DNA of 53,225 nt from a virus, in IMG/VR virus record IMGVR_UViG_3300047157_000005, positions 1 to 53,225 of that record. One strand, given 5' to 3'. The translations under genes were made by a program, and so were the position numbers. Below are positions 6,207-41,601 of this stretch, in pieces (position 1 is the stretch's first letter; each line of letters opens with the position of its first letter). The notes beneath the pieces were generated by a model. It was not told the origin of the DNA. It did no database searches and saw only the letters and a list, made by a program, of their open reading frames with translations.

Positions 6207-6245
6207 TTGCTATACTATATACAGTATGCTACATAATGTATGTAG
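6207..6245 (+). promoter_or_regulatory. Promoter copy 1 with overlapping palindromic operator
   Basis: -35 TTGCTA (6207-6212), a 17-bp spacer and -10 TACATA (6230-6235). A perfect palindrome CTACATA-ATG-TATGTAG covers the -10 (6229-6245), and a second one, TACT-N6-AGTA, sits in the spacer (6213-6226). Two other copies occur at 19129-19167 and, on the minus strand, 41562-41601. It drives the gene at 6267. Confidence 0.75.
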
Positions 6246-6266: not shown

Positions 6267-6482
6267 ATGAAAATCAAAGGCGCAATGACAATTCTTAATA
6301 AACGAGCTAAGTTTTATGGTAAAAGTGTAAATTGGCTCATCAATGAATTGGATAATGAGTTATACAATAATGAAACTACAATGGTTCTTGTAGCTTATGA
6401 AGTCTATAAAAAGGATCAAGGATATCGTTGGAAAGGTACTGAAGGCGATACTTGGGTCAAAGTAATTAAGGAGGCAGTATAA
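6267..6482 (+). CDS. Hypothetical early protein, 71 aa
   Basis: First gene behind promoter copy 1. AAAAGGAA lies 6-7 nt before the ATG. The protein has a basic N-terminus (KRAKFYGKSVNWL), an acidic centre and a Trp-containing C-terminus (GYRWKGTEGDTWVKV). No family recognised. The stop overlaps the next start by one base (TAATG), so the two are coupled. Confidence 0.65.
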   Translation: MKIKGAMTILNKRAKFYGKSVNWLINELDNELYNNETTMVLVAYEVYKKDQGYRWKGTEGDTWVKVIKEAV

Positions 6483-6940
6483 TGTCACTTAATATTACAC
6501 AAACTGAAATCAATACACTTTGGGACAAGGGATACCGCCCTTTTGAAATTTACACATCTAACCCAGAGCCTGTAATGTATCACGGCAAAATGGAAGAAAC
6601 TAATGCAGTTGGTGGTTGGGATATCAAACACATCTTTGCCACACGCGATGAAATTGAAAACTACCCAAACTTTGACTGCATCATAATGGTAGACAGTGTT
6701 GCTTACTGTACTGAAGTGTTTCACGGCAAAGATGTAAGTGAAGACAAGCGCGTAGATGCTTTAGTAGTAGAACTAACAAAGCATTACATGGAAATGATAG
6801 AGCTTATTAAAGAAGCCAAGGCAATGCCTGATAGCGATAAGCAAAAAAGCGTCTTAATTATGGTGAGAACTCGCCTTAAAGACAACATCGCAAAAGAATT
6901 GAAAAAATTGGTAGATGAAGAAAAGTCTGAGGTGGTGTAA
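6482..6940 (+). CDS. Hypothetical early protein, 152 aa
   Basis: A strong Shine-Dalgarno (AAGGAGG) precedes the ATG, which overlaps the previous stop by one base. The first half looks like a small alpha/beta fold (GYRPFEIYTSNPEPVMYHG); the last 60 residues form a charged helical tail (KAMPDSDKQKS, KELKKLVDEEKSE). No catalytic motif or family recognised. It overlaps the next gene by one base, making a tight early operon. Confidence 0.65.
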   Translation: MSLNITQTEINTLWDKGYRPFEIYTSNPEPVMYHGKMEETNAVGGWDIKHIFATRDEIENYPNFDCIIMVDSVAYCTEVFHGKDVSEDKRVDALVVELTKHYMEMIELIKEAKAMPDSDKQKSVLIMVRTRLKDNIAKELKKLVDEEKSEVV

Positions 6941-7293
6941 TGGGAGATTATTTAGCACATTGGCAGAAAAAAGATGGCACTCCTAACTTGCGAACAGCTT
7001 CTGGTCAAAGGATACAACGCCGAATGGATGAAACAATTAGAAAAGAATTGGAAATTGTTCAGAGGGCGCAAGCGAATATTGATCGTCTGGTAAAGGGTGG
7101 TGGCAGATTGCCACCAGTTGCCCCTAAAGAAACATCGGAAACTCTGATTGATGAATTGGAGAAGTGGCGTTTAGCACAAGGCTTCAAGGCAATGTGCGCT
7201 ATGGAATTAATTTATGAGTATGAGCTTACACCAAAGCAATCTACTTGGATCGTAAACTTTATGAAGCGTTGGGATAATCTCGACAAAATTTAG
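6940..7293 (+). CDS. Hypothetical early protein, 117 aa
   Basis: A soluble, helical, basic protein: Arg-rich N-terminal half (SGQRIQRRMDETIRKELEI), a Gly/Pro hinge (KGGGRLPPVAP), and a C-terminal helix pair ending MKRWDNLDKI. It is coupled to the previous gene by TAATG with AGGTGG upstream. Nothing identifies its function. Confidence 0.6.
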   Translation: MGDYLAHWQKKDGTPNLRTASGQRIQRRMDETIRKELEIVQRAQANIDRLVKGGGRLPPVAPKETSETLIDELEKWRLAQGFKAMCAMELIYEYELTPKQSTWIVNFMKRWDNLDKI

Positions 7294-7306
7294 AAAGGAG
7301 ATGGCT

Positions 7307-7507
7307 ATGGAAACTTTTAAATTTGAAATCACAATTGAGGTTGGACAAGATATGTATGGCGACAGTGAAGGCCAACCCACATTTCACGAAACTAAAGAGT
7401 GGTTAAAAAACATGATCTCATGGAACCACCCACATGATGCCAGAAGGTATTTTAATGACGTTAAAATTGTATCTAAAAGAAAAAAGGAGAATAAAAATGG
7501 GTTATAA
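7307..7507 (+). CDS. Hypothetical early protein, 66 aa
   Basis: The first ATG (7301) directly touches the Shine-Dalgarno AAAGGAG, so the second ATG at 7307, 6 nt from it, is the likelier start (METFKFEITIEV). It is a small beta-then-helix protein with a Trp/His motif (SWNHPHDARRYF) and a Lys-rich end. It overlaps the next gene by 11 nt. Function unknown. Confidence 0.55.
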   Translation: METFKFEITIEVGQDMYGDSEGQPTFHETKEWLKNMISWNHPHDARRYFNDVKIVSKRKKENKNGL

Positions 7508-7832
7508 ATATTGGACACAAGCGGAGGACGCAGAGCTTGTATTAATGCGAGAAGCCAAGGTATCTACCAAGGAAATCTCCAGAGCTTTAAATCGTTCGAC
7601 TTCTTCAGTTATGAACCGCATAGCTGTTAAGGAAATACCATACGGCAAGCCAAGTGTTATCGATGAGATTGCATCCGTTGGTGTTGCATTTGGTGAGCCT
7701 GACACAATTCAAACAGAAAGAGAGAAGCAAGCAAGTGAAATGCAATCTCTTAAAAATGCGCTTGAGGAAATGGAAGAAGACATCAAGCCAAGCAATTGGT
7801 TTCCAAGACTGAAGCGTTGGTTAGGATTTTAA
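7497..7832 (+). CDS. Myb/SANT-like HTH DNA-binding protein
   Basis: The start at 7497 is chosen because AAAAGGAG precedes it; the in-frame ATG upstream has no ribosome site. Residues 5-42 (YWTQAEDAELVLMREAKVS, then TKEISRALNRSTSSVMNRI) match the pattern of Myb/SANT- or GcrA-type helix-turn-helix domains. A coiled, acidic middle (QSLKNALEEMEED) and a basic Trp-rich end (WFPRLKRWLGF) follow. It is likely a transcription regulator acting on phage or host promoters. It sits among small early genes and overlaps the preceding one by 11 nt. Confidence 0.7.
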   Translation: MGYKYWTQAEDAELVLMREAKVSTKEISRALNRSTSSVMNRIAVKEIPYGKPSVIDEIASVGVAFGEPDTIQTEREKQASEMQSLKNALEEMEEDIKPSNWFPRLKRWLGF

Positions 7833-7833
7833 A

Positions 7834-8034
7834 ATGGAACCAATAAAAAAATTGTCATCTAGTTATTGCCCTCACTGTCGTAATGAAAAACTAGCGGCAA
7901 AGGATTCTAGGGCGCATTCTGCCTTTGGATTTTTAACTACAAAACGTCGAAAGGTTTGCCCTAAGTGTGACTATAGGGTAACCACAATCGAACTGCCACT
8001 ACATCTGGCAGAAGAAATATTTCAAGAAGTTTAG
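7834..8034 (+). CDS. NrdR-like zinc ribbon mini-protein
   Basis: The 66 residues contain two CPxC knuckles (C12/C15 and C42/C45). The sequence between them, KDSRAHS then KRRKVCPKCDYRVTTIE, follows the zinc-ribbon half of the ribonucleotide reductase repressor NrdR (CPxC, DSR, RRR, CxxC, RFTTxE). The ATP-cone that fills the rest of NrdR (about 100 residues) is absent. It could bind DNA, for example NrdR boxes of the host, without nucleotide sensing. It starts 1 nt after the previous stop. Confidence 0.7.
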   Translation: MEPIKKLSSSYCPHCRNEKLAAKDSRAHSAFGFLTTKRRKVCPKCDYRVTTIELPLHLAEEIFQEV

Positions 8035-8046
8035 AAAGGAATGAGT

Positions 8047-8352
8047 ATGATTATTAAGAGATGGAAGTTTAAAGGTTTCAACCACATAACCTTTACCAAT
8101 GACTTCCCTGATTGGATTAAGATGAACTCAGGCAAAAGGTTAGGCCACAAGAGTTTGTGGGTATACACACAGTCAGGTGAAGTTCCCATCGAAAGTGGCA
8201 AGTGGATATCAATTAACTTGCGTGGTCACATTGAAGTCCACGATAAGAAACCAAAGCTACTATTTAATGTTGGACTGACAAAGGAAATCTTTTCTGGATT
8301 TCTGTTAGTTGCCACACTTTTAATTATAGTTGTAGGATTGATGGTTTTGTGA
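8047..8352 (+). CDS. Small protein with C-terminal membrane anchor
   Basis: Start set at 8047 because AAAGGA abuts the ATG at 8041 but lies 6 nt from the second ATG. About 75 polar, Trp/Lys-rich residues (KFKGFNHITFTNDFPDW) come before one hydrophobic helix at the extreme C-terminus (FLLVATLLIIVVGLMVL), a tail-anchored layout. It is the last gene of the early operon, just before a strong terminator. Function unknown; a membrane-targeted host-interaction protein is possible. Confidence 0.6.
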   Translation: MIIKRWKFKGFNHITFTNDFPDWIKMNSGKRLGHKSLWVYTQSGEVPIESGKWISINLRGHIEVHDKKPKLLFNVGLTKEIFSGFLLVATLLIIVVGLMVL

Positions 8353-10341: not shown

Positions 10342-12639
10342 TTAATTTATTGGTGGTGAGAAGTAAGCAAACCTTGGCCTACCCTTTGCACCTTCGTTTT
10401 GATTTCTACACTCAATACCTCTGTCAGTTTGCAGTGCATCAAGAATGTCAGCGCGTCTGCGCCTATCCATATTTGCAAAAGAAGATACACTTCTGGCTAA
10501 CTCACGTTCAGTTAAGCCAGTTAACCCAGCCTTTTCTATTCGTGCGTAAACTGCCTTACATGCCGCTTCAAATGGTCCTTCTGACATATTAGACCTGAAC
10601 ATCTCGATAGTTTGGATTGCATAGTGATCTACATAATCGATAGACCATTGCATTGCATCTGAACCTATTTCGTCCTGACCCATTGACCGAGCGATAATCA
10701 AAGACAAACGCATGGCAATCTCACGGCTACGATTGTACATAGCCTCCAGACCTGTACCTGTTTCCTTCTTAATTGCATTAACCAATCTCTGCTCGTACTC
10801 ACGCAGAAGATTTTCAGCTTCTTGAGTAAATGCAACTTCTAGTGGATGTGGTGGCATGTCATGACTGTTGCCAGTATCTAAGTCACCTTCATTTGCATTG
10901 GCATGATCCTTTGCCCAAGTAGCAAGTCGATCAGATATTGTTGACCTACGTTTCTTCTGGGACATCTGCACACCAATTTCAGACTTCACAATTATAAAAC
11001 GATTGAGCAATCCAGATGCAACATCACCTCCACCAATAGCTTGCATAAACTCTGATGGTGTAGACATTCCAACTAATGTGAGAGACGGACGCTTCACAAC
11101 CTTCTCCAACTTCTCTGCGTCTGCCGATTTCATTGTATTGGTTGCGTAACCTTGTTGCCTTAAAGTTCCGTCTTGGCGTCCAAAGCATTCCATGATTGCA
11201 GTTATTGCGTCAGCTTTATGTTGCATACCCTTTGCAGATGCCGCCTTTAACTGTCGCCCAAGTTCGTCAATTACAGATACATGCGTTGGCTTTTTAGTTA
11301 GCGTAGATAAAACACCCGCACTCGAAGTATAGCCAGCAGGCCCTATTAATTCATCTAGCCCAGACTGCTCAAGTAATTCCTCGATGACAGTTTTCGTGTG
11401 TTCCTTACCAGATCCTGTCTCACCAATATTTAAGAAGTATAAGCTAGAGAAGTTTCTCTGATCAGTAACCCACCGACGACCCATTGCAACTGAACCAAAT
11501 GCAATTGCACATTGCACAGCAAATTGAGGTTGGGGTTTGATTGCAGATACAGTGTAGTAATTTACAACATCCTGAAGAACGCCAGGCACACTTAGTAAAT
11601 GTTCAGGTATTTCACCTAGTGGTGTGTCTACTTCTTTTGATTTTGTAGACATAATATTCTTGGCGACTCTTGCGCCATGCTCGATTGCTTCCTTGTCTAA
11701 ATCATACTCTTCGTCTTGCGTCACGTTTAATATTTGAGCGGCTTCTTTGACCGCCTTCTGGACGTTACCCATGTGTTCGAACTGTAGCCACAATTCAAAT
11801 GCATCAAATGTATGTGCATTATCAAATGGATCAGATGCGTGGTGGCTGTAGGCTCTGCCATCATCAAATAATTTTACACCAGCTAATCCTGACGTGCTGT
11901 TGGGAGATAAATATCTACCCTTGGACGTTGGCTTGTATCCATACTGAACCATCAAAGTGTGCATGTCATGTGCATCATTGAATGCATCTATCACTGAAGT
12001 GCTATCACTTTTAGGTCTTGGCTTTCGTGTTGGCTGAAACTCTGCCTTCTTTTTCCAAGGGCATATGTCCTGAAGCTGTGGACGAAACTTATCCCACTCA
12101 CGCCACAATGTTAAAATTTGTGGTGGTAGTTCTGGGATGCCATCGAAGATTGATCTCCCTGCCCATTCATATGGACGACCTGTATCTGGATGGATACTTG
12201 GAGGAAGTACATCCTGAACAGAGCCTGCGCGCAATTCAAATACCACTTCGGTCTTGCGTGGATCTCCCTCGACAGGCCACGATATCTTGTGCGTGATTAA
12301 ATCAGGTGGAGCTTTAAAGATCAACTTACCACGATTTTCACGTCCGATAATCTGTGGTGCAGATTGCATCAACTCAGAAAAATCTATTCCCAGATGTTCA
12401 AAAATTATTTTTGTATGCTCGACATTATCTATGTCGATAGCACAAGTTCCAGATGCACCATGCAGTAATCCTACATTGTGATTTGGGTTCTGCTCATAAT
12501 ATAGTCTAGCCTGATCTGGATCGGACAATGCCTTCTCTGGTTGTTGCCAACCAAATCTCGTTGGCCCTTTGGAGCCAGCGGGGATTGTTACCAGATACCA
12601 ACTCAGCTTTGAACAGTAATCTTCTATCTGAAAGCTCAT
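10342..12639 (-). CDS. Bifunctional primase-polymerase/DUF3987-type helicase
   Basis: The central replication protein, 765 residues. The N-terminal prim-pol domain carries the metal-binding D69-x-D71 (AIDIDN) and H150 (PPSIHPDTGRPYEW). A linking domain (242-272, RYLSPNSTSGLAGVKLFDDG, then AYSHH) is typical of phage primases. The C-terminal ATPase has Walker A GETGSGK (406-412) and Walker B VSVIDE (454-459), followed by a helical/winged end (GLTELERELARSVSSFA-like). It should make primers and unwind DNA at the fork. It overlaps the upstream HTH gene by ATGA. No DNA polymerase lies nearby. Confidence 0.88.
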   Translation of the reverse strand: MSFQIEDYCSKLSWYLVTIPAGSKGPTRFGWQQPEKALSDPDQARLYYEQNPNHNVGLLHGASGTCAIDIDNVEHTKIIFEHLGIDFSELMQSAPQIIGRENRGKLIFKAPPDLITHKISWPVEGDPRKTEVVFELRAGSVQDVLPPSIHPDTGRPYEWAGRSIFDGIPELPPQILTLWREWDKFRPQLQDICPWKKKAEFQPTRKPRPKSDSTSVIDAFNDAHDMHTLMVQYGYKPTSKGRYLSPNSTSGLAGVKLFDDGRAYSHHASDPFDNAHTFDAFELWLQFEHMGNVQKAVKEAAQILNVTQDEEYDLDKEAIEHGARVAKNIMSTKSKEVDTPLGEIPEHLLSVPGVLQDVVNYYTVSAIKPQPQFAVQCAIAFGSVAMGRRWVTDQRNFSSLYFLNIGETGSGKEHTKTVIEELLEQSGLDELIGPAGYTSSAGVLSTLTKKPTHVSVIDELGRQLKAASAKGMQHKADAITAIMECFGRQDGTLRQQGYATNTMKSADAEKLEKVVKRPSLTLVGMSTPSEFMQAIGGGDVASGLLNRFIIVKSEIGVQMSQKKRRSTISDRLATWAKDHANANEGDLDTGNSHDMPPHPLEVAFTQEAENLLREYEQRLVNAIKKETGTGLEAMYNRSREIAMRLSLIIARSMGQDEIGSDAMQWSIDYVDHYAIQTIEMFRSNMSEGPFEAACKAVYARIEKAGLTGLTERELARSVSSFANMDRRRRADILDALQTDRGIECRNQNEGAKGRPRFAYFSPPIN

Positions 12640-12821
12640 GCTGATTCGGTCAGATATTGGCTAAGTTTCTTCCAAGTTGTTAAACTGATGTGGTCAACGC
12701 CATCTCCTGATGCGATCCCCTTTACAGTTGGGTGAGATAGCCCACATTTCTCAGCGACAACAGTTAAACGTCTATCTTGCAACGCCTCTCGTATGTCGTC
12801 CAGTGGTAGTAGTGTTTGCAT
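12636..12821 (-). CDS. Small HTH regulator (Cro/repressor-like)
   Basis: The start at 12821 (ATG preceded by AAAAAGGAT) is preferred over in-frame ATGs further upstream that fall inside the divergent promoter region. The 61-residue protein contains one helix-turn-helix: LTVVAEKCGLSHPTVKGIAS (residues about 19-38), then a C-terminal helix (TWKKLSQYLTES). It heads the replication operon and is divergent from the recombination operon, the classical place for an autoregulating switch protein. It could bind the inverted repeat at 12847-12864 or the 7-3-7 palindromes elsewhere; both are inference. Confidence 0.7.
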   Translation of the reverse strand: MQTLLPLDDIREALQDRRLTVVAEKCGLSHPTVKGIASGDGVDHISLTTWKKLSQYLTESA

Positions 12822-12846
12822 TATTTTGATCCTTTTTTGCATTATT

Positions 12847-12887
12847 TGTAAAAACATCTTTACATAGTGAAAATCTTTCTGTAAACA
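12847..12887 (+). promoter_or_regulatory. Divergent promoter with TGTAAA-N6-TTTACA operator
   Basis: A perfect 6-bp inverted repeat, TGTAAA (12847-12852) and TTTACA (12859-12864). Its right arm doubles as a -35 box for a plus-strand promoter: TTTACA, 17 bp, TAAACA (12882-12887). Another TGTAAA occurs at 12880-12885. It sits between the HTH gene and the recombination operon. Confidence 0.5.
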
Positions 12888-12933
12888 AGATTCTGTAGAG
12901 AATGAGTGAAAAAAAGAAAGAAAGGAAATTGCC

Positions 12934-19128: not shown

Positions 19129-19167
19129 TTGATATACTACATTTAGTATGCTATATAATGTATGTAG
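19129..19167 (+). promoter_or_regulatory. Promoter copy 2 with overlapping palindromic operator
   Basis: -35 TTGATA (19129-19134), a 17-bp spacer, -10 TATATA (19152-19157). The near-palindrome CTATATA-ATG-TATGTAG (19151-19167, one mismatch) covers the -10, and TACT-N6-AGTA lies in the spacer. It matches copies at 6207-6245 and 41562-41601. It proves that the ATG at 19148 cannot be the start of the gene that follows. Confidence 0.75.
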
Positions 19168-19186: not shown

Positions 19187-19582
19187 ATGAGTGACTTTTA
19201 CTATAATGATGGCGGACGTGTCGAATCAGGCCGAAGAGGTATAGCTGGTGATTGTGCAGTTCGCGCAATGGCTATAGCTTTAGAGCTAGACTACGATGCT
19301 TGCTATAAAGAAATAGCACAAGCCAATAAAGACAATGGACGCGCTAAGTCTGTTCGTCATGGCGTTATGAAAGACGTGTATGGCGCAGTTTTAAAGCGTC
19401 ATGGATGGGTCTGGCATTCAGCACCAAAATTTAAAGGCGTAAAAGCTCGCGCTGAAGATATGCCTGATGGTGTTGTTATTGCCAGACAAGCAAGGCACTT
19501 CGTTGCTGTTATTGATGGTGCTGTTCACGACATATGGAACTGCTCTCACAAAATGGTCTACGGCTATTGGGCTAAAGTATAA
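19187..19582 (+). CDS. Cysteine peptidase-like protein
   Basis: Start at 19187 (AAAAGGAGA 6 nt upstream); the in-frame ATG at 19148 lies in the promoter. The 131 residues show a papain-like order: C23 (AGDCAVRAMAIAL), H104 (ARHFVAVIDG) and D115 (VHDIWNCS). This resembles a group of small phage proteins with a DCxxRA motif. It may cleave a host or phage protein or act as a transglutaminase-like enzyme; activity is unproven. The gene forms a one-gene unit with its own promoter and a 3' hairpin. Confidence 0.68.
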   Translation: MSDFYYNDGGRVESGRRGIAGDCAVRAMAIALELDYDACYKEIAQANKDNGRAKSVRHGVMKDVYGAVLKRHGWVWHSAPKFKGVKARAEDMPDGVVIARQARHFVAVIDGAVHDIWNCSHKMVYGYWAKV

Positions 19583-40374: not shown

Positions 40375-40845
40375 TTATGGACGAACAGGAGAGTTGTACG
40401 CTTGAGCATATAAAATCGTAATAACTGCAACACCAGCAGTAGTTCCTGCACTGCTTGTCACTGTAAGTTTAAGATCGGCAGTTCCTGTGTCAGCCCACTC
40501 ACCTGTACCACCACCTTGTGTAGTTACAGTTTTAAGACCAGCAGTCGTGCCAGATGCCAATGTATTTAAGATTGTTGTTGCGCCACCAACTGTATCACCA
40601 ACACTCAAGTTTGTTGTTGTGTTAGCCGCAGTAGACATATCAACTTTACAATCAATAATTTTAGATTTTGCTGGAATAACCATGTTGGTTGCACCTGCCG
40701 CAATAGCTCCATTTGATAGATCCATTGTGTGCGTTTGCATCATGACAACATAACCGACATTTGCTATGTCGCTTCCAACTGTTGTGCCTGTTGTGTTTTT
40801 GATAGTACCAGCCCGCACTGGGCCTGAGAATGTAGTTGTACCCAT
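40375..40845 (-). CDS. Structural protein, 156 aa
   Basis: N-terminus MGTTTFSGPVRAGTIKNTTG, then a Thr/Ala/Gly-rich beta protein (MVIPAKSKIIDCKVDMSTAA) ending AYNSPVRP. The SGPVRAGT start is familiar from marine phage structural proteins. First gene after the terminator at 40934, preceded by AGGAGA and two CTGTCAGGG repeats, so it likely starts a transcription unit. Confidence 0.7.
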   Translation of the reverse strand: MGTTTFSGPVRAGTIKNTTGTTVGSDIANVGYVVMMQTHTMDLSNGAIAAGATNMVIPAKSKIIDCKVDMSTAANTTTNLSVGDTVGGATTILNTLASGTTAGLKTVTTQGGGTGEWADTGTADLKLTVTSSAGTTAGVAVITILYAQAYNSPVRP

Positions 40846-40965: not shown

Positions 40966-41538
40966 TTACCAATCTTTGCCATTGATTTTTACTTTGGTAG
41001 GGCGTTGAATGATAGTCTGCCTTACACCTTCTCGAACACCATGATCTTTGACTTTAGCCATACACTCAACTGCATTGCCTTTGCCCCACTCATTAGAACC
41101 TTTGTATATCACAATATTCTCGTCAGCATCGCGGCAGATGTTGATGTAGCTTGTACCCCAGTTTCCACCATCCAACTCAACAACGTGCTTAACTGTAATA
41201 GTGAAAGCCTGACGCTCTCCCACTGTGCCGACAAACTCACACTTGCCATCTCTAGTAGCCCACTCAGCCTTTTGAGCCGCACGCTTGTCAATCATCTTGA
41301 CCATAGCGTTACGCATATTGTCAGTTGGCTTACCAAACTTATTAATACCTCTTTTAACGGCTGATAAAAAACCTTCACCATTTGAATCTTCAAATTCAAC
41401 AAAATCAATAATTTCTTGAGCGCGATCATCAGACGCGATCCAGTTTTTACGCTTTGTATTAGCGGCATTAGCCATTCTGTAATTGCGAATACTACTGTAA
41501 TAGTTAGCTTCGCCTGGGTGATTATCTATATATGCCAT
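40966..41538 (-). CDS. OB-fold-like protein, 190 aa, independently transcribed
   Basis: The N-terminal half is basic and helical (MANAANTKRKNWIASDDRAQ, VKRGINKFGKP). The C-terminal 90 residues have alternating strands (CEFVGTVGERQAFTITVKHV, TSYINICRDADENIVIYKGS, VECMAKVKDHGVREGVRQTI) like OB-fold domains in phage replication proteins. It has promoter copy 3 upstream and a terminator downstream, so it is switched with the early promoters although it lies among capsid and tail genes. It may bind single-stranded DNA or RNA; function is inference. Confidence 0.68.
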   Translation of the reverse strand: MAYIDNHPGEANYYSSIRNYRMANAANTKRKNWIASDDRAQEIIDFVEFEDSNGEGFLSAVKRGINKFGKPTDNMRNAMVKMIDKRAAQKAEWATRDGKCEFVGTVGERQAFTITVKHVVELDGGNWGTSYINICRDADENIVIYKGSNEWGKGNAVECMAKVKDHGVREGVRQTIIQRPTKVKINGKDW

Positions 41539-41561: not shown

Positions 41562-41601
41562 CCTATACACAATATATAGTACACTAAATAGAGTAATGCA
41601 A
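41562..41601 (-). promoter_or_regulatory. Promoter copy 3 with overlapping palindromic operator
   Basis: Minus strand: -35 TTGCAT (41601-41596), 17-bp spacer beginning TACT, -10 TATATA (41578-41573). CTATATA-TTG-TGTATAG (41579-41563, one mismatch) overlaps the -10. The leader GGTAGAGAAATAAAGGAATT resembles those of copies 1 and 2. It drives the gene at 41538. Confidence 0.72.

Follow-up and report, generated by a model that had tools for sequence, protein, structure and literature searches.

The window analysed here comprises an entire virus record of 53,225 bases. By its sequence it is related to roseophages CRP-901 and CRP-902, and its structural half matches these Roseobacter phages at about 80% over the aligned part. 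Three promoter/operator modules are dispersed over it, and copy 3 sits behind the major capsid gene and that gene's terminator-like stem. The modules and the 14-bp boxes that they contain are as follows:

6207..6245, + strand: copy 1 promoter/operator module, read from the sequence, with the -35 TTGCTA at 6207-6212 and the -10 TACATA at 6230-6235, heading the operon 6267-8352
6213..6226, + strand: copy 1 box 1, TACTATATACAGTA, NrdR-like, in the -35/-10 spacer
6227..6240, + strand: copy 1 box 2, TGCTACATAATGTA, NrdR-like, over the -10
19129..19167, + strand: copy 2 promoter/operator module, with the -35 TTGATA at 19129-19134 and the -10 TATATA at 19152-19157
19135..19148, + strand: copy 2 box 1, TACTACATTTAGTA
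19149..19162, + strand: copy 2 box 2, TGCTATATAATGTA
41563..41601, - strand: copy 3 promoter/operator module, with the -35 TTGCAT at 41601-41596 and the -10 TATATA at 41578-41573
41582..41595, - strand: copy 3 box 1, TACTCTATTTAGTG
41568..41581, - strand: copy 3 box 2, TACTATATATTGTG, overlapping the window's best NrdR-consensus 16-mer at 41567-41582

A check of the sequence placed the three promoters where the first-pass annotation had put them, at 6207-6245 (+), 19129-19167 (+) and 41601-41563 (-), and bore out its description of them. All three share TTG-N3 and a 17-bp spacer starting with TACT, the -10 hexamers are TACATA, TATATA and TATATA in copies 1, 2 and 3, and a 7-3-7 palindrome is perfect in copy 1 (6229-6245) and carries one mismatch each in copy 2 (19151-19167) and copy 3 (41579-41563). 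The spacer element TACT-N6-AGTA is likewise exact in copies 1 and 2, and copy 3 has TACT-N6-AGTG instead. A 46-bp matrix built from the three copies was then scanned over the 53 kb and over 20 shuffles. The copies themselves scored 57-62 bits, against 8.8 bits for the next-best window site (their own reverse strands set aside) and 16.2 bits for the best of the 20 shuffles, so that their similarity lies far beyond chance and the motif search returns exactly three copies of the module, with no fourth in the 53-kb window. The bare 7-3-7 pattern, with up to three mismatches allowed, was only mildly enriched in the window (7 occurrences versus 2.9 expected). On the best reading, which forms part of an explanation that we rate slightly above even, the three modules would be sigma70-type (host) promoters with a built-in repressor site, forming one phage-specific regulon.

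Two near-identical 17-bp palindromes of another kind, CGACAT-N5-ATGTCG, were also found at 12420-12436 and 40755-40771 of the window, both intragenic, one in the primase-polymerase gene and the other in the capsid region. G001 has the pair as well (L147 5980, L148 10117), and single copies occur in G002 and G007.

The two palindromes of the promoter module, in the spacer and over the -10, are two adjoining copies of one 14-bp box, which had been missed in the first pass: the spacer element and the -10 element are abutting head-to-tail copies of the unit TRC-N8-GTR, and in each of the three promoters the first box lies between the -35 and the -10 and the second over the -10. Within the window, exact matches to the tandem pattern are confined to 6213-6240 (+), 19135-19162 (+) and 41595-41568 (-), and allowing one mismatch added no further window site except the own reverse strands of these promoters. 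For the comparison with relatives, the window-type operator was called class A and the CRP-901-type operator (TGACA-N2-TGTCA) class B. In 15 loci of relatives the offset to the second box is exactly +14, and no other offset between 8 and 33 is seen in more than one locus; this fixed spacing could partly reflect the distance between the -35 and the -10. Among non-redundant class A sites, T7 A8 C9, A13 and A17 G18 T19 are invariant or nearly so in the spacer while the bases between them vary, and the box positions outside the -35 and -10 (C9, G18, C23 and G32) are kept across many phages. Some relatives have a single box over the -10 (ACACTATATACAGTAT in L238 and L399, TACCATATGATGTA in L261 and L402); the promoter is thus always covered by a box, whose position may vary, as occlusion would predict. 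The palindrome over the -10, put forward in the first pass as the conserved element, did not hold up, as orthologues of copy 1 keep 5, 6 or 7 of its 7 pairs with uncompensated changes. Its dyad is kept neither in these orthologues nor across class A, and it was rejected as the operator; what relatives conserve is the two abutting 14-bp TRC-N8-GTR boxes, not the 7-3-7 palindrome. Covariation of the arms within classes was uninformative, the arms being too invariant.

The boxes agree with the core of the NrdR operator, C-N8-G around a central AT. To scan the window we used the NrdR consensus ACACWATATATWGTGT, reportedly that of Rodionov and Gelfand in 2005, which was not derived from the phage sites. 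Of about 53,200 positions (16-mers), those ranking 1, 3, 4, 5 and 11 fall in the three promoters; 7 of 1500 permuted palindromes of the same make-up match equally well, several of these being near-copies of the NrdR consensus. By cryo-EM, NrdR places two zinc ribbons on each box and the bound DNA has a kink at the central AT; two conserved GC pairs, nine positions from each other, matter for binding, and the protein contacts are made by D15, R17 and an Arg-rich motif, RRRR (PMC9110341). Class A sites keep C9, G18 and A13 nearly invariant, which correspond to the GC pairs and the AT kink position of these contacts. NrdR, however, requires two boxes, both needed, with centres about 31-32 (or 41-42) bp apart, some three helical turns (PMC12051234), and neither spacing was found at the three promoters, where the boxes are 14 bp apart. 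There, the NrdR-consensus score is high only at offsets 0 and +14, and low from -42 to -30 and from +30 to +42. With 14 bp instead of about 31 bp between boxes, the binding geometry must therefore differ from that of NrdR.

Copy 1 heads the operon 6267-8352, of which these genes concern us here, the last three closing it:

6267..6482, + strand: 71-aa gene without assigned function that follows copy 1 and opens the early operon
7497..7832, + strand: Myb/D5-like HTH protein of 111 aa encoded in the copy-1 operon, restricted to close relatives of the window
7834..8034, + strand: NrdR-type zinc ribbon, the proposed repressor, 66 aa without ATP-cone (PF22811; NrdR of the PDB by profile; DSR/KRRK)
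8041..8352, + strand: homologue of CRP-901 gp01, a syntenic marker at the end of the regulator operon

Protein P0001 had no relative in named phages. The 66-aa ribbon scores 34.9 bits against Pfam PF22811 (NrdR zinc ribbon), above the cut-off of 27.2, a profile search of the PDB matches it to NrdR chains, and its alignment keeps the NrdR specificity residues (D-S-R; KRRK/KRRR). NrdR is also the first structural match of its AlphaFold model in Foldseek, but a weak one (E 0.07). The ATP-cone is absent: the protein ends after the ribbon, and TIGR00244 reaches only 22.8 bits versus a cut-off of 124.65, over residues 12-54 only. By these sequence comparisons the ribbon is not a full NrdR family member and would, if the assignment holds, work like the DNA-binding half of one. 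No match to a ribonucleotide reductase family was found among the genes behind the three sites, nor among the other early proteins scanned. Around gp01, relatives retain the ribbon, and the neighbouring HTH gene varies.

The zinc-ribbon gene is unannotated in the published CRP-901 and CRP-902 records (L005 678-866; L003 607-801). A search of bacterial genomes for the ribbon gave one match, on a contig of a gammaproteobacterial MAG (JAALKB010000131.1; L379 330-527), where it is 95% identical to that of the window; this is probably a phage contig binned with the MAG. A separate phage group (L398, L401, L404) has the same zinc ribbon without gp01, MarR or boxes, and the ribbon has thus spread beyond the clade of the window.

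The genes behind the other two modules are the following:

19187..19582, + strand: gene after copy 2, 131 aa, PHROG 3754, with a putative cysteine-peptidase-like motif
40966..41538, - strand: gene after copy 3 (P0003), 190 aa, homologue of CRP-901/902 gp29, PHROG 27218

The copy 2 operator is kept though the gene behind it differs: it encodes 131 aa in the window, and in G001 its place is taken by an unrelated gene of 112 aa. P0003 is 65-67% identical to gp29 of CRP-901/902, a gene that closes the early region of those phages and is read from the opposite strand. In 60 viral contigs, members of the P0003 family usually have their own promoter, with a spacer element of the resident phage's type. 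Since the family carries the resident operator in different phages and positions, the operator appears as a property of the genome and not of the gene.

CRP-901 and CRP-902 share the promoter skeleton of the window (TTG, a 17-bp spacer, TATA, then TATAG or TGTAG and a GAGAGA leader), and promoters of this build precede several of their small genes. Their spacer dyad differs, being TGTGACA-N2-TGTCAC and once the symmetric variant TGCCA-N2-TGGCA. Exact TGACA-N2-TGTCA occurs four times each in CRP-901, CRP-902 and G012, always in promoter spacers, and the class A 46-bp matrix found no matching site in CRP-901/902. These two phages encode a MarR-type protein, gp02, in the corresponding operon. Among operon-bearing contigs, which are related and hence not independent, class A comprised 32 without MarR and 0 with it, and class B 17 with MarR and 0 without; none of the contigs compared carried both operator types. 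When 25 distinct zinc-ribbon clusters were considered, the promoter box [TC]AC-N8-GT[AG] was present in 19 of the 20 without MarR and in 0 of the 5 with it (Fisher p 1e-4, kinship ignored); these five, CRP-901/902 among them, have TGACA-N2-TGTCA as their spacer dyad. Upstream of zinc-ribbon operons, the same pattern ranked first among 160 control patterns (mean 7.4, sd 4.0). The AlphaFold model of a class B protein, a close homologue of gp02, has a pLDDT of 83 and finds MarR 3bpx as its best PDB match (E 5e-4), which supports a winged-helix MarR fold; TGACA-N2-TGTCA would be the palindromic operator that such a protein binds as a dimer. Class B operators head the MarR operon in CRP-902, G012, L194, L197, L269 and others, as class A operators head the ribbon operon, and both regulators thus appear to control themselves.

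In a tree of the capsid gene, classes A and B each form a single group among the labelled rows, and the tree was set aside as proof of independent gains. Class B G012 is sister to G007, which has another operator and neither MarR nor ribbon, so that the association of operator and regulator does not follow capsid lineage purely. The annotation of CRP-901/902 contains no integrase. When 18 genomes were searched de novo for promoters that repeat, the operator again went with the genome: the types recovered were the window type, the CRP type, AGTCTC-N6-GAGACT (G016), CGTTAAC-N5-GTTAACG (G017) and others. Spacer dyads over 13 promoter classes chosen by gene gave a combined p of 0.03, and 0.11 without classes A and B, too weak for a universal feature of all lineages, which was rejected. 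As a clear dyad is not seen in every lineage, the principle is claimed only for the well-sampled classes A and B.

Several of these genomes had repeats of their own. G016, which is more distantly related, has a third operator type: three of its promoters (L180 10566, 11099, 11756) carry the AGTCTC-N6-GAGACT dyad in the spacer, the second and third copies with one or two changes. The repeated promoters of G017 (L182 16356, 16905; L183 8973, 7514) have the spacer CGTTAAC-N5-GTTAACG, containing TTAA-N7-TTAAC, which we take to be the binding site of the alphaproteobacterial regulator CtrA. In G013 (L172, L173, L174), promoter-like candidates recur within the record, L172 2267 and L173 18897 being one such pair, which suggests that a long stretch is duplicated internally or at the ends.

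That one regulator controls a dispersed regulon, as the first-pass annotation had proposed, is supported by these comparisons: the operator outlasts a change of gene, the set of sites is coherent within a genome, and copy 1 heads a regulator-bearing operon. The two regulators that it named, the Myb-like protein and an HTH protein at 12636-12821, are not supported, and the best candidate is likely the zinc ribbon at 7834-8034, which it did not name. The main weakness of this assignment is that MarR phages also keep the ribbon, with intact DSR and RRRR motifs and without conserved boxes, so that ribbon presence alone does not predict boxes. The unrelated phage group of L398, with ribbon and without boxes, also speaks against the ribbon-box link. 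In MarR phages the ribbon may have another role or relaxed sites; the gp29 promoter of CRP-901 has CAC-TATATAAT-GTA over its -10.

Ribbons in phages without boxes would also fit a reader of another kind, either a different DNA-binding protein from the copy-1 operon, for instance the Myb/D5-like one at 7497-7832, or an unrecognised phage protein, the ribbon then having another job. In favour of the Myb-like protein are its place in the copy-1 operon and its match to the PHROG annotated as transcriptional regulator, D5-like. Its gene, however, is missing from 16 operon-bearing class A contigs with the same operator, whereas the ribbon is present in all operon-bearing class A contigs, and the agreement of the box with the known NrdR core further argues against a Myb-like reader; we consider this alternative unlikely. 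It seems quite unlikely that the three promoters are recent copies of a strong promoter cassette without a dedicated regulator, their palindromes a by-product of the -10 TATA and the start-site TATAG. These two elements alone do yield palindromes, TATAG/TGTAG-AGAGA leaders are common to phages with other operators, and spacer dyad symmetry over all lineages is weak, as noted above. Conservation of the four box positions outside the hexamers amid varying bases, and the different dyad in the spacers of MarR phages with its symmetric variant, speak against this reading.

The host's own NrdR might read the boxes, with phage genes following the nucleotide state of the host, and both the likeness of the boxes to the NrdR consensus and the near universality of NrdR in bacteria (PMC12051234) would favour it. 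Since the required box spacing is absent at all three promoters, where no partner box was found about 31-32 (or 41-42) bp away, and sister phages of Roseobacter have different operators, this reader was rejected as very improbable. The last protein to be weighed is the other regulator proposed in the first pass:

12636..12821, - strand: Cro/CI-type HTH protein, homologue of CRP-901 gp12, rejected as regulator of the module

Although short and of a type typical of phage regulators, this protein can hardly be the repressor, as it is 73-76% identical to its CRP-901/902 homologues and its invariant SHPTVK recognition helix, in a helix-turn-helix almost unchanged there, cannot easily explain two unrelated operators, and its divergent intergenic region has another conserved element. 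In that region (12822-12933, between the HTH gene and the divergent gene), TTTACA and TGTAAA stand face to face, conserved in CRP-901 and CRP-902, possibly as overlapping divergent promoters or as the HTH protein's own operator.

On balance, we lean towards an autoregulated regulon under a phage-encoded repressor, in which the 66-aa NrdR-type ribbon (7834-8034) would read the boxes and MarR would do the same job in sister phages. From the positions of the boxes, the place of the ribbon gene in its operon and the observed co-occurrence and exclusion, we infer binding, kinking and repression along the following lines. The three promoters would fire early on host polymerase, and the accumulating zinc ribbon would dimerise on each box and kink the box DNA. 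Because the boxes lie in the -35/-10 spacer and over the -10, a bound ribbon would exclude RNA polymerase; the ribbon's own early operon would thereby be under negative feedback, and the two distant genes would be switched off at a set time. As it has no ATP-cone, the repressor would be blind to nucleotides and would respond only to its own level. The MarR-type protein of the same operon, with the TGACA-N2-TGTCA spacer dyad, would play the equivalent role in sister phages (CRP-901/902 and others).

Phage P1 C1 likewise acts as one repressor on dispersed operators overlapping promoters, but its sites are asymmetric and P1 is temperate. The repressors of cluster A mycobacteriophages (L5, Bxb1) resemble the proposed system in that one repressor serves many dispersed sites and motif and repressor differ together between related phages (PMC6550527). 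Their stoperators are asymmetric, mostly outside promoters and found in temperate phages, whereas all three window sites are promoter spacers or -10 regions, with no asymmetric elongation-stopping site outside promoters among them; in roseophages, moreover, the whole regulator family changes between sister lineages. Cluster K mycobacteriophages have repeated conserved elements, SAS/ESAS, before many small genes, some with inverted repeats of a consensus that varies from subcluster to subcluster (PMC3203893); SAS, however, is asymmetric, 13 bp long and close to the start codon, whereas the window has a promoter with boxes between and over its hexamers. Precedents thus exist for operators dispersed over a phage genome and for motifs that diverge between related phages (PMC6550527, PMC3203893). 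With NrdR, the proposed repressor shares a zinc ribbon with two CxxC, DSR and an R-rich motif, the operator core, boxes that overlap the promoter and regulation of its own operon, the last as in many bacteria (PMC9110341, PMC12051234). It differs in its length of 66 aa without ATP-cone, in box spacing (14 versus about 31 bp) and in phage targets that are not ribonucleotide reductases.

What is new is an ATP-cone-less NrdR ribbon as the proposed reader, 14-bp tandem boxes inside promoters, and a repressor family exchanged together with its operators between sister phages that keep the same targets. Literature searches found no phage NrdR repressor, and to our knowledge no NrdR zinc ribbon has been described that works on its own as a repressor of a phage; if true, this would be the first case. 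In a broader picture that we put forward tentatively, at somewhat less than even confidence, the DNA-binding half of NrdR would be kept as a nucleotide-blind master repressor with a 14-bp tandem-box code, roseophages would swap the set of regulator and operator (ribbon versus MarR) over the same targets, and free ribbon may occupy or mimic host NrdR boxes at ribonucleotide reductase operons. CRP-901-type phages have been described as globally distributed and abundant, in a paper without mention of promoters or operators (PMC10149686). The present analysis gives these phages a concrete regulator candidate, an operator code and a target list, and related phages that would swap repressor and operators together offer a natural experiment.
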